A DNA stretch of 64,000 nucleotides from an uncultured Saprospiraceae bacterium (GTDB lineage: Bacteria; Bacteroidota; Bacteroidia; Chitinophagales; Saprospiraceae), in assembly GCA_937981555.1 (NCBI GenBank), contig CALJOK010000001.1, positions 124,001-188,000 on the forward strand, given 5' to 3'. The first letter of the stretch is position 1; each line of letters starts with the position of its first letter. Positions 44,367 to 53,910 of this stretch are shown here, one piece after another. Both the position numbers and the translations under genes were made by a program. The notes under the pieces are model-generated. The model was not told the DNA's origin. It worked only from the letters and a program-made list of their open reading frames with translations, and did not search any database.

Positions 44367-45065
44367 CTATTCCTCCTCTTCATTTAATTTCTTTTGTAAT
44401 TCAATTTCAGCGGCAACGGCGGCAGCTTTATCTTCTTCTTCTTTCCTTCTTTCGTGCTTGTTCTTTTTCTTTACTGGTTTTTTCAAAGCACTTTTCTTAG
44501 GAGCGATTACCACAATCATTCTACGTCCTTCCATCTTTGGCATGGCTTCCGGTGCACCGTACTCAGCTAATTCTTTGATAAAACGAAGTAAAACTAATTC
44601 ACCACGATCTCTAAAAACGATTGTTCGTCCACGGAAATGAACATAAGATTTAACTTTAGAACCTTCTTTTAAGAAATTGATCGCATGCTTTAATTTAAAA
44701 TCAAAATCATGTTCGCTGATATTTGGACCAAAGCGAATTTCTTTCACTACAGTTTTTACCGCATTAGATTTGATTTCTTTTTCCTTCTTCTTCCTCATAT
44801 AGAGGAATTTTTTGTAGTCAATGATTTGACATACAGGAGGTTTAGCTTTCGGAGAGATTTCGACCAAGTCGAGTTCCATTCTGTCTGCCCACTCTAAAAC
44901 TCTACGAGTTGGATAAATGCCAGCTTCAATATTTTGTCCAATAGTTTCACTTAATTCTTTAAGATTGTCACCCACCAATCGAATGTCTGGAATACGGATT
45001 TGATCATTCACTCTAAATCTGAGTGTATTTTTTCTAATGGGTTGCTTTTTTTGTCTTTTAGCCAA
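44367..45065 (-). CDS. infC: Translation initiation factor IF-3 (non-AUG start)
   Basis: A 232-residue factor that keeps subunits apart and checks the start codon. N-domain: RFRVNDQIRIPDIRLVGDN; C-domain: PVCQIIDYKKFLYMRKKKEKEIKS, then KEIRFGPNISEHDFDFKLKHA and HFRGRTIVF. A lysine/glutamate-rich tail extends past the normal 180 residues (KKKNKHERRKEEEDKAA). No in-frame ATG exists at the start: the codon at 45065 is TTG (then AKRQKKQPIRKN), and ATT lies in frame at 45071. IF-3 autoregulates through a non-AUG start in E. coli. Confidence 0.93.
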   Translation of the reverse strand: MAKRQKKQPIRKNTLRFRVNDQIRIPDIRLVGDNLKELSETIGQNIEAGIYPTRRVLEWADRMELDLVEISPKAKPPVCQIIDYKKFLYMRKKKEKEIKSNAVKTVVKEIRFGPNISEHDFDFKLKHAINFLKEGSKVKSYVHFRGRTIVFRDRGELVLLRFIKELAEYGAPEAMPKMEGRRMIVVIAPKKSALKKPVKKKNKHERRKEEEDKAAAVAAEIELQKKLNEEEE

Positions 45066-50024: not shown

Positions 50025-50026
50025 AA

Positions 50027-50059
50027 AAAGAGGGCAGAAAAGTAAACTTTTCTACCCTT
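50027..50059 (+). terminator. A-tract hairpin after rnz
   Basis: An A-run directly after the stop precedes GGGCAGAAAAGT, which pairs with ACTTTTCTACCC around AA with one mismatch. No T-run follows on the plus strand. Confidence 0.55.
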
Positions 50060-50305
50060 GATAACTAACACACGCCCTTAATTTTTAATTTCCTTTCTTG
50101 TTATATTTTAGTTAACTAACTAATTCTTTCTTGTTTTATTGATAATACAAATTTGGGGCAAAATGAGGCTATATCCAACTAAATGGGGGTAACAGAAAGA
50201 TAACAATCAAGAAAAATAGAAGAAACAGGTAAACAAAAAGATAACATATTAGTATTTTTAGGTTCTTTTCTATTTAAATTAATTTCTATATTTTATTTTT
50301 ATATC

Positions 50306-52027
50306 ATCAAAACAACATTTTTTACACCTTTTATTTTTTTCATCTTCTTAGCTCCAAATTTTTTACAAGCTCAAAGTAATAATTTAGAGAATCAACAACT
50401 AAGAGTCCTATACGATAGTATTGTTAACTATCGTAATACTGATGTTAATTTATATCATAAGAATGTTCATAGCCTTATAGATATTTCTACCGAACAGAAA
50501 AATGATCATTATAAATCTATTGGATTAAGAGAGTTAGGCTTTTATTATATTATTAAAGCTAATTATGATAGTGCAATGTTGTATTTAGATTTAGCGGAGG
50601 AGATTGTACCTGATATTGATGAGAGAAGTTTATTGTTATTAGAAATTAATACTTTTAAGGGACTAGTATATTTAGAAACATTTGATTATTTCTCTGCAAT
50701 AGGAGTTTATAATAGTGGAATTGAATTAGCTAGAACGCTAAAAAGAAAAGAGGATATACTGGGAGGAAATCACATGATAGGAGAGATCTATAAGAGGTGT
50801 AAAGAATACGATAGATCTTTAGAGTATTTTGAATTAGCAGCCCCACCCATTTATGAGAACGATACCATTGTAGAAAGACATGGTTGGTGGAATTTGAATG
50901 TAGGGGAGGTTTATCTTAAATTAGGGAAATATAACCAAGCAGTAAATTATTATAATAGAGCTTTAGAGATATGGAACAAAATAGATATGACTAGAGGGAA
51001 GGGGTATACTTATAATAGTTTTGGTGAATTATACTTTGAAATGGGAAATGAAAAATGCGTCTCAAGTTTCCAAAAAGCGATTGAGAATAACACGTTGATG
51101 AATAACAAGGGGCAAATTATCACTTCTTATATTGGACTTGGTAAATACTATGATAAATATCAACTGAACAAAGTTACTGCGGCTGAAATGTATAGCTATG
51201 CGATCAATGAGGGGATTAAAGATAACCTTGAATTTATGCTTGTTCCCGCATTAGATTTTTTCATTGAAAGACCAGAGCATAGGAATATATTAAATATACC
51301 TATTAATGAATTATTAGAGATTAGAAATAATGCATTTGAAAAACATCTAAGAAAATCTTCTAATCAAGATATAAAGATCATTGAGGCAATGGAGAAGGTT
51401 AGGGATGCTGAGCAAAAAGAAGTTTTTGCAAAAGAGAAAGCTTCTTTGTATCAAAAAATGGTTTTATTATTTTTTGGGATGATCATATCCATTATTTCTT
51501 TGTTTTGGGTTGTTTTTAATAAAAATAAAAAATTAAATCAAAACCAAAATAAAGTTAAAAATCAAATTCAATTAACTAGAAACCAAACAGAAGAGTTGGA
51601 TTTGGTTAATGAAAAATTAACTAAAAACAATATTATTTTAAAAGAGGATATCTCAGTTAAAAACAATGAATTAACTCGGTCCAAAGAAATTATAGAAAAC
51701 ATTAAAGATGCTTCTAAAGAAAGTAGAAACAAAAGAATTAATTCCATCATCCGATCTGAATTAGATGAGTCATATTGGGTTGAATTGAAATCTATTAATA
51801 ATTATCGGGATCAAGATTTTGTCAGAAAAATGTCGGAATTAAATGCAGACCTTAGTTTTAACGAAATTACAATCTGCTGCATGATAAAAGAGAACTTGTC
51901 TACAAAAGATATAGCTAAGTTAAAGCAAAGCACGCCAGAAAGTATCAAGGTTGCTCGATCAAGAATAAGAAAGAAAATCAAATTACACAGAGATAGAAAA
52001 TTGGCCGATTTTCTTGTTGAATTATAG
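50306..52027 (+). CDS. Transmembrane TPR-LuxR regulator, copy 1 (ATC start inferred)
   Basis: About 573 residues. A signal-peptide-like start ends PNFLQAQS near residue 22. TPR-like helical repeats fill residues 30-340 (YIIKANYDSAMLYLDLAEEI; GGNHMIGEIYKRCKEYDRSLEYF; LNVGEVYLKLGKYNQAVNYYNRA). One membrane segment (VLLFFGMIISIISLFWVVF, about 387-405) is followed by a coiled coil and a C-terminal LuxR-type HTH (FNEITICCMIKENLSTKDIAKL, then SIKVARSRIRKKIKL). The TPRs are therefore extracytoplasmic and the HTH cytoplasmic. The first ATG is only at 50576, but coding homology with copy 2 continues upstream; no ATG, GTG or TTG exists in frame, and ATC at 50306 aligns with ATC of copy 2. Confidence 0.82.
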   Translation: MKTTFFTPFIFFIFLAPNFLQAQSNNLENQQLRVLYDSIVNYRNTDVNLYHKNVHSLIDISTEQKNDHYKSIGLRELGFYYIIKANYDSAMLYLDLAEEIVPDIDERSLLLLEINTFKGLVYLETFDYFSAIGVYNSGIELARTLKRKEDILGGNHMIGEIYKRCKEYDRSLEYFELAAPPIYENDTIVERHGWWNLNVGEVYLKLGKYNQAVNYYNRALEIWNKIDMTRGKGYTYNSFGELYFEMGNEKCVSSFQKAIENNTLMNNKGQIITSYIGLGKYYDKYQLNKVTAAEMYSYAINEGIKDNLEFMLVPALDFFIERPEHRNILNIPINELLEIRNNAFEKHLRKSSNQDIKIIEAMEKVRDAEQKEVFAKEKASLYQKMVLLFFGMIISIISLFWVVFNKNKKLNQNQNKVKNQIQLTRNQTEELDLVNEKLTKNNIILKEDISVKNNELTRSKEIIENIKDASKESRNKRINSIIRSELDESYWVELKSINNYRDQDFVRKMSELNADLSFNEITICCMIKENLSTKDIAKLKQSTPESIKVARSRIRKKIKLHRDRKLADFLVEL

Positions 52028-52077
52028 AATATTCCAAACGTAACTATTAACACATTTCTAAATAAAACACCTTTGCT

Positions 52078-53802
52078 ATCCAAAACTATAAACACCTTTT
52101 ACTAGTTTTCTTAATTTTCATTTCCCCAAATTTTCTGAATGCCCAATTTGATAATTTGGACGACGACGAAATGAAAGTTTTTTTCGATACGATTATGATG
52201 TATCGGAATACTAATATTTTGCAGTATAACCAATCCGTAAAAAAAATACTAGAGATAAGCTCTAACCAAAACAATCAATATTATTACAGTAAAGGGCTTC
52301 GAGAATTAGGATTCTATCATATTATTAAAGCAGAATATGATAGTGCATTATTATTCCTTAATCAATCTCAAAAAATAGTAGAACAGTTAGAAGATGATTC
52401 ATTAATGGTGGAGCTTTTAAATTTTAAGGGGTTAGTTTATCTGGAAACATTTGATTATTTCACAGCAATTCAATTGTATCAAAACATTAATTCAATTGCA
52501 AAAAAGATAGAAGGATCTACGGATGAATTGTCTGCCAACCAAATGATTGGAGATATCTATAGAAGATGTAAAGAATATGATAAATCCTTAGAGTATTTTA
52601 AACTATCAGAACCTTCAACCTATAAAAAAGATACCGTTGTTGAAAGACATGGTTGGTGGAATTTGAATATAGGGCAGGTCTATTTTAAACTAGGAAAATA
52701 TGAGGAAGCAGTAAATCATTATAATAAATCTTTAGAAATATGGGACAAAATGGATATGACTCGAGGGAAAGGTTATACTTATAATAGCATTGGAGATCTG
52801 TATCTAGAAATCAAATCAAAGAACTGTTTTGAGAATTATTATCAAGCGATTGGAAATAATAAATTAATAAATAATAACACAGAATTTGTAAGATCTTATG
52901 TCGGCTTAGGAAATTCCTATAAAATAGTAAATGGAAATCTGGATAGTGCTGCCTACTATTATCAAAAAGCAATTGATATTGGAATAGATAATAATTTGGA
53001 ATTTATGCTTATTCCTGCTTTGGATTTTTTTATTGAAAAACCTGAATATGGGAAAGTACTCAATTTGACCTATAAAGAATTATTAATTGTAAAAAATAAG
53101 GCCACAGAAGAATCCTTAAAAAGATCCTCTAATCAAGATCTTAAGATTCTAGCCTCAATGGAGAAGATCAAGGTTGCAGAAATAAATTATATCAATTCGT
53201 TGGATAAAACTAAGATGTATCAGAGGATTTTTCTACTCCTTTTGTTGCTTGCATTCTCAATTATTGTTTTTTTAATTACACTTTTTGTAAAGAATAAAAA
53301 ATTAAAAGAATCTCAAAGTCAAATAAAAAATCAATTTGAAGTGATTAGTGTACAAGCTATTAATTTAGAGAAAGCGAATAAAAAATTAGTTGAAAATAAT
53401 TTATTATTAAAGGAAGATCTTTCAATTAATAACTTGGAGTTGTTACATTCAAAAGGGATTCTAAAAAATATAAAAAAAGTATCAATAGAAGAGAAAAATA
53501 TTGAAATCAATTCGATTATCCAATCAAAAATAAGTCGCTTTGATTTGGATAAGGAACCGGGAAAGTCCCTTGAGTTTTATAAAGAAAAGGATTTAGTTAA
53601 AAAATTAGCTGATTTAAATTTGAAACTTAACGATAATGAAATAATGATATGTTGTATGATTAAAAAAGGATTGGCAACAAAGGAAATTGCAAATATTTCT
53701 CATCGTTCTCATGATAGTTTAAAAGTGACAAGATCCAGAATTAGAAAAAAATTAAAGTTAGATAGGGCAGAAAACCTTACCATTTATTTAAATAAATTAT
53801 AG
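52078..53802 (+). CDS. Transmembrane TPR-LuxR regulator, copy 2 (ATC start inferred)
   Basis: About 574 residues, collinear with copy 1. Signal-like start IQNYKHLLLVFLIFISPNFL, then NAQ. TPR helices match copy 1 closely (e.g. RELGFYHIIKAEYDSALLFL; VERHGWWNLNIGQVYFKLGKYEEAVNHYNKSLEIWDKMD). A membrane segment near 383-404 (RIFLLLLLLAFSIIVFLITLF), coiled coil and LuxR-type HTH (DNEIMICCMIKKGLATKEIANI) follow. Only TTG (52156) or an internal ATG offers a normal start, both after the signal peptide. ATC at 52078 directly follows ACACCTTTGC, which resembles a -7 element. Tandem duplication of copy 1, gap 50 bases. Confidence 0.82.
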   Translation: MQNYKHLLLVFLIFISPNFLNAQFDNLDDDEMKVFFDTIMMYRNTNILQYNQSVKKILEISSNQNNQYYYSKGLRELGFYHIIKAEYDSALLFLNQSQKIVEQLEDDSLMVELLNFKGLVYLETFDYFTAIQLYQNINSIAKKIEGSTDELSANQMIGDIYRRCKEYDKSLEYFKLSEPSTYKKDTVVERHGWWNLNIGQVYFKLGKYEEAVNHYNKSLEIWDKMDMTRGKGYTYNSIGDLYLEIKSKNCFENYYQAIGNNKLINNNTEFVRSYVGLGNSYKIVNGNLDSAAYYYQKAIDIGIDNNLEFMLIPALDFFIEKPEYGKVLNLTYKELLIVKNKATEESLKRSSNQDLKILASMEKIKVAEINYINSLDKTKMYQRIFLLLLLLAFSIIVFLITLFVKNKKLKESQSQIKNQFEVISVQAINLEKANKKLVENNLLLKEDLSINNLELLHSKGILKNIKKVSIEEKNIEINSIIQSKISRFDLDKEPGKSLEFYKEKDLVKKLADLNLKLNDNEIMICCMIKKGLATKEIANISHRSHDSLKVTRSRIRKKLKLDRAENLTIYLNKL

Positions 53803-53910
53803 AACAGGAAGAAATTGAAATATTTCTAAATATTTCGCGTTTTTTCAACATATTATCATTTATTCCCATCTTTCAACAGCATTCACGAAACTTGATTTTA
53901 TTTTATCGGT

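Follow-up and report, generated by a model that had tools for sequence, protein, structure and literature searches.

Two adjacent genes of an uncultured Saprospiraceae bacterium are probably translated from the near-cognate codon AUC, as far as their sequences allow a judgement. The pair lies in a 64,000-nucleotide stretch of contig CALJOK010000001.1 (positions 124,001 to 188,000, here called the window, within which all plain coordinates are given) and is arranged in tandem, with each gene encoding a protein that combines tetratricopeptide repeats (TPRs), a membrane segment and a LuxR-type helix-turn-helix (HTH) domain; the two proteins are 50% identical. The proposed initiation codons are the ATC at 50306 and the ATC at 52078. 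For both genes, a coding region without a canonical start codon, a signal peptide and a start-like context at the ATC were computed, and it is this combination of coding constraint ahead of the first canonical codon, signal peptide and context that makes AUC initiation the best-supported explanation. The features on which the argument turns are as follows.

50306..52027, plus strand: copy 1, 573 codons from the proposed start, with signal peptide, TPRs, one transmembrane (TM) segment and a C-terminal GerE/LuxR-like HTH
52078..53802, plus strand: copy 2, 574 codons from the proposed start, with the same architecture as copy 1
50306..50308, plus strand: ATC, proposed start of copy 1, from the gap-free alignment with 52078 and the start context
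52078..52080, plus strand: ATC, proposed start of copy 2, the sole candidate codon, with start context
50306..50374, plus strand: predicted signal peptide of copy 1 (IKTTFFTPFIFFIFLAPNFLQAQ), judged by eye
52078..52146, plus strand: predicted signal peptide of copy 2 (IQNYKHLLLVFLIFISPNFLNAQ), judged by eye
52063..52065, plus strand: in-frame TAA bounding the copy 2 start
50576..50578, plus strand: the ATG that is the first canonical codon in the copy 1 frame, taken as internal from its poor context and the coding sequence upstream
52156..52158, plus strand: TTG, the first canonical codon in the copy 2 frame, with a context at the 11th percentile
50183..50203, plus strand: six-codon ATG...TAA open reading frame (ORF) in frame with copy 1, considered as a readthrough start and not favoured

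Absence of canonical start codons

In copy 1, the first ATG, GTG or TTG in frame after the TAA at 50201-50203 is the ATG at 50576, 124 codons on. Of 901 non-overlapping ORFs with 200 codons or more, taken from 1,645,311 of the 7,254,626 bases of the genome (23%), none goes longer without a start, and the runner-up has 57 codons. The frame of copy 2 is open only from 52066, 12 bases before its ATC, and after the TAA at 52063-52065 it reads AAC ACC TTT GCT ATC (52078) CAA AAC TAT AAA. Its first in-frame canonical codon is the TTG at 52156, just past the signal peptide, and from the upstream stop to the core of the signal peptide ATC 52078 is the sole ATG, GTG, TTG, ATN or CTG codon. The signal peptides end in PNFLQAQ (copy 1) and PNFLNAQ (copy 2), with an ATC exactly 16 codons before PNFL in both genes and no gap in the alignment between them.

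The original prediction, that neither copy has an ATG, GTG or TTG at its proper beginning and that the two ATCs align, was upheld when the frames were read and aligned. No canonical codon stands at the 5' end of either coding region, which for copy 2 is judged from its similarity to copy 1 and its signal peptide, not from its coding score (-4.8). The suggestion made at the same time, that the start might lie in a spliced or slipped message, found no support in copy 1, as no ATG, GTG or TTG triplet begins at 50184-50420 in any of the three forward frames.

Coding constraint ahead of the first canonical codon

The similarity between the copies upstream of ATG 50576 looks like coding similarity. 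Over codons 1-90, the mismatches at codon positions 1, 2 and 3 number 41, 18 and 52, and in the first 24 codons alone they number 13, 7 and 15. Synonymous differences per synonymous site (Sd/S) come to 0.73 and nonsynonymous differences per nonsynonymous site (Nd/N) to 0.34 over the 90 codons, a ratio of 0.46; the other two frames give 0.77 and 2.79. The in-frame coding similarity that had been noticed over about 90 codons before ATG 50576 is thus confirmed by the codon-position pattern and by Nd/N falling below Sd/S.

A 3-periodic Markov score of the best start-less suffix, computed for 234 ORFs, gave 15.9 for copy 1, 16.2 for prfB and 6.8 for the third ORF. The prfB reading frame is entered by a programmed frameshift. 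Here prfB (G000:C42:18766-19794, minus strand), in which what looks like the usual frameshift site was recognised from the junction sequence, served as the positive control of the scan. The best coding suffix of copy 1 consists of 77 codons from 50345, out of the 90 between ATC 50306 and ATG 50576, and the leader at 50204-50305 scores as non-coding (-4.0). In copy 2, the case for upstream coding is made by similarity to copy 1 and by the putative signal peptide. The Markov and ORF-gap scans replaced an earlier scan of codon usage that lacked sensitivity (the 45 of 92 ORFs listed did not include copy 1).

Context of the two ATC codons

To score start contexts, a matrix was derived from 571 unambiguous ATG starts in the same genome, with the pair excluded. 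ATC 50306 scores 1.8, at the 29th percentile of those starts, and 4.2% of 29,685 internal ATN codons reach that value; ATC 52078 scores 3.5, at the 47th percentile, a value reached by 1.3% of the same internal codons. Both ATCs therefore have the start-like context expected of a near-cognate initiation codon, and ATG 50576 (1st percentile) and TTG 52156 (11th percentile) rank low. The start regions of this genome are A-rich: G accounts for no more than 11% at every position between -25 and -1, and no Shine-Dalgarno signal is visible. Together with the gene content, such start regions point to Bacteroidota. In Flavobacterium johnsoniae, a Kozak-like A at -3 is reported (PMC6847099), and copy 1 has an A at this position. 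The RNA around the copy 1 ATC is predicted to be unfolded, and the copy 2 ATC is predicted to be unpaired.

Upstream of the ATCs, the copies are barely similar apart from one 12-base block. The motif ATTTCTA begins exactly 24 bases upstream of both ATCs (50282-50288 and 52054-52060), a weak coincidence given that 2.1% of random leader pairs share a run of 7 and 7.1% share a 12-base window as alike.

The initiator-type anticodon-arm pattern occurs in one tRNA-Met (CAU) and in one further place where ARAGORN finds no tRNA. A special initiator tRNA reading AUC was considered and rejected, the pattern search having returned only the CAU tRNA-Met, although unusual tRNAs would escape such a search.

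Homologues and genus mates

Close homologues of the pair were sought widely. Pattern searches of genome contigs returned 5 and 79 matches, among which no close homologue was confirmed, and the plasmid search gave only partial matches of the TPR type among the 10 of 17 records listed. With the bacterium's own genome set aside, no homologue was found in 59 relatives at E 1e-20, nor in 394 genomes of the phylum at E 1e-35; 397 family genomes at E 1e-25 gave one distant match and 395 order genomes at E 1e-30 gave four, in genome sets that overlap and in which only the best few candidates per genome were scored, so that a homologue may be missed.

The five distant homologues (L021, L040, L041, L042 and L043) come from four genera, and in each an ATG immediately precedes a stretch resembling a signal peptide. 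No canonical codon comes before that ATG in the frames of L021, L042 and L043; L040 and L041 have in-frame TTGs upstream, and there the ATG was chosen by the analyst. Their profile matches begin at query position 68-154, and the N-termini correspond by position and type rather than by well-aligned residues. Homologues that all start at the internal ATG without a signal peptide had been named as the case that would overturn the prediction, and the five distant homologues do the reverse, keeping both an ATG and a signal peptide. With ATG in five of five, the ATC is seen in this pair only.

Three of four genus mates (G001, G002 and G003) have the RNase Z-like and NlpC/P60-like flanking genes adjacent to one another, and in the fourth (G004) the contig ends there. 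This means either a gain of the pair here or its loss there, and the corresponding interval is:

50025..53836, no strand: pair-bearing stretch absent from genus mates, about 3.8 kb, between the RNase Z-like and NlpC/P60-like genes; the left end is inferred and the right end is where similarity to the genus mates resumes (about 53837)

Weighing the explanations

Several points weigh against AUC initiation. As no close homologue was found, conservation of the ATC rests on two paralogues, and since 3 of the 28 sites where Ile aligns with Ile, counting this one, have ATC in both copies, retention of the codon is weak evidence. The scans of 23% of the genome, which see only genes with long start-less stretches, gave no other likely ATC gene besides one weak candidate. 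The coding score of copy 1 stops short of ATC 50306, because the best suffix begins at 50345, inside the signal peptide, and the 26 codons of copy 2 before TTG 52156 score -4.8, no better than the copy 1 leader at -4.0. Position -3 of copy 2 is a G where copy 1 has an A, and 2 nucleotides past the copy 2 ATC the predicted RNA enters a weak hairpin (-3.3 kcal/mol). Finally, ATA 50216 in copy 1 has a better context than the ATC (6.0, 77th percentile). Copy 1, or both copies, might indeed use such another near-cognate codon, which at ATA 50216 would give copy 1 a longer N-terminus; the frame is open there, and in a separate context scoring this codon again came out on top of all copy 1 in-frame sites (7.7). 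This is nonetheless unlikely, as the region 50204-50305 scores as non-coding (though the copy 2 signal peptide scores likewise), there is nothing like ATA 50216 in copy 2, TAA 52063 closes the copy 2 frame, the two copies resemble each other little ahead of the ATC outside the 12-base block, and the signal peptide would be placed 30 residues in. Internal starts at ATG 50576 and TTG 52156, which would leave both proteins with no signal peptide, have in their favour that these are the first canonical codons, as given by the mechanical ORF list, and that the 26 codons before TTG 52156 are invisible to the coding model. Such starts must be considered very unlikely in view of the coding-type constraint upstream of ATG 50576, the poor contexts of both codons and the signal peptide retained in the homologues, and they would cost copy 1 90 residues, 43 of which are identical in copy 2.

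The genes could also be relics without a start or a silent pair, either in decay or awaiting recombination, as would fit with their being missing from this place in three of four genus mates and with the lack of a canonical start in either copy. This too is improbable, to much the same degree as the ATA start, for the frames are open over 573 and 574 codons, the proteins have drifted apart to 50% identity with constraint of the coding type, and it is unlikely that one and the same codon was lost twice independently. The related idea of a silent cassette or shuffling was rejected from a search with the copy 1 leader DNA, which has only four short further matches in the genome, of 72 bases or fewer. 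Recoding would call for readthrough from ATG 50183, which is in frame with copy 1, across the TAA at 50201, or for a frameshift from TTG 52073, which overlaps the copy 2 start in another frame. This is highly improbable: paralogues that align at the ATC would each require a different mechanism, the copy 1 leader scores as non-coding, and no prfB-like site was seen by eye. An assembly or sequencing error that removed a true ATG is harder still to credit. The prediction had held that a one-base error would not create an ATG in either gene; that was mistaken for substitutions, as a third-base change turns either ATC into ATG. Such an error would have had to strike the same codon in both of these 50%-identical genes, and two independent errors of this kind are unlikely.

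Expression and function of the pair

AUC initiation as originally predicted draws support from the upstream coding constraint, from a signal peptide at the end of the protein where the homologues with ATG have theirs and from the start-like context; the low expression predicted along with it we infer only. Under AUC initiation, the codon at both sites would be read by the ordinary initiator tRNA (CAU), and so weak a start, in an organism whose leaders are A-rich and show no Shine-Dalgarno signal, would keep the amounts of both proteins low. Such a start could make both genes sensitive to initiation factor 3 (IF3), and low dosage of a membrane sensor-regulator would be the likely effect.

As for the proteins themselves, Pfam recognises TPRs in both, with the C-terminal GerE/LuxR HTH below the cut-off (17 bits against 23.5), and by eye there is one TM segment per protein, near residue 390. 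Both are predicted to be membrane-spanning sensor-regulators, with an exported TPR domain, one TM helix and a cytoplasmic LuxR-type HTH.

The proposed start of copy 2 follows the copy 1 stop by 50 nucleotides, which suggests co-transcription as a simpler arrangement than a leaderless copy 2, and the two copies are probably co-transcribed. The promoter consensus is TTG N16-24 TAnnTTTG. None begins at 51950-52080, and the notion that a -7-like element would leave the copy 2 message nearly leaderless did not survive inspection, as CACCTTTG is not TAnnTTTG (the TA is missing) and no TTG lies 16-24 bases before it.

Gene callers are reported to rely on ATG, GTG and TTG (PMC5472188), so annotation would truncate genes of this kind and drop the signal peptide; in the present case, a sensor anchored in the membrane would be recorded as a soluble protein. 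If AUC works without Shine-Dalgarno help, the pair would offer a natural test of start choice by these ribosomes, and of whether near-cognate codons set the dose of a regulator, as for sigR and ccpN (below). A bolder proposal, which appears doubtful for now, is that in a lineage without Shine-Dalgarno pairing AUC is a deliberate low-dose or IF3-gated setting for this pair, and perhaps for the membrane-protein ORF described next, where nothing but the A-rich start region would mark the start.

Other loci in the genome

The weak candidate from the genome scans is a membrane-protein ORF (G000:C26:23034-23882, plus strand; L138:3034-3882) with 57 codons without ATG, GTG or TTG. It carries ATC ATC with contexts at the 47th and 65th percentile, and a homologue (L151, 22% identical) aligns from codon 14, ahead of the first canonical codon. 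With a coding score of only 3.0, the ORF is a lead to a possible further ATC-start gene. A ParB-like gene (G000:C17:290870-292090, minus strand) appears to be broken by a stop codon: its frame runs into a TAG 55 codons past an upstream ATG.

The gene for IF3, infC, lies in the window at 44367-45065 on the minus strand, and its first canonical codon is the TTG at 45065. The same holds for 20 of 22 readable loci, this genome included, and the other two have ATG (26 loci were fetched, 4 of which were unreadable by the motif used), TTG being a weak IF3 start that is conserved across the group. Two codons ahead of the TTG, this genome and two of the genus mates have an ATT immediately following the stop, and infC could thus also start at ATT.

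Comparison with known systems

Initiation from all 64 codons has reportedly been studied in Escherichia coli. For AUC in particular, a start mutation to this codon in a Bacillus subtilis reporter is described as giving much lower expression (PMC10303841), and in vitro, raising IF3 is reported to reduce initiation where the third-base pair is weaker, as in AUU/CAU (PMC10158994). In a Neisseria gene, a repeat element is reported to have changed ATG to ATC, with unclear function (PMC10210955). No ATC or AUC start in Bacteroidetes appeared among the titles and abstract openings of the literature matches listed, one set of which dealt mostly with mitochondrial genomes. At the protein level, the nearest named families are distant. 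The BT3442 family (NF053779) gives weak NCBIfam matches to the two copies (20.1 and 25.4 bits, E 2e-4 and 5.5e-6) and the HaaT TPR protein (NF041717) a weak match to copy 2 (E 2.9e-7); with 20-29 bits against curated cut-offs of 940 and 1125, respectively, the copies are not members of either.

The closest precedent by method is L12ae of Staphylothermus marinus, for which an ATC start is reported to have been inferred by alignment because no valid start codon was present (PMC2678158). As in the pair, alignment pointed to the ATC; unlike the pair, L12ae is an archaeal single-copy ribosomal gene with no duplicate and no signal peptide. The start of infC is given as ATT in E. coli and ATC in Streptomyces (PMC5472188), and as AUA in Staphylococcus aureus (PMC13009471). 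The rare ATN start of infC limits its initiation, as is proposed for the pair, but infC encodes an autoregulated translation factor, whereas the pair is predicted to encode sensor-regulators.

For the proposed function, the model is sigR of Streptomyces, a regulator kept low by a non-canonical start, GTC, that is reported to be repressed by IF3 (PMC5472188). It differs from the pair in the codon, in being a sigma factor, in having a ribosome-binding site and in having been proved by mutation, where the pair is argued from sequence comparison. In S. aureus, ccpN (AUA) and cvfC1 (AUU) are described as having conserved near-cognate starts with about 10% of the AUG reporter yield, up to 30% for ccpN (PMC13009471). 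Those genes have extended Shine-Dalgarno motifs, whereas the genome of the pair has A-rich, G-poor start regions. The pair would add to this known class of near-cognate-start genes, with the extra interest that it does so in a genome without a visible Shine-Dalgarno signal.

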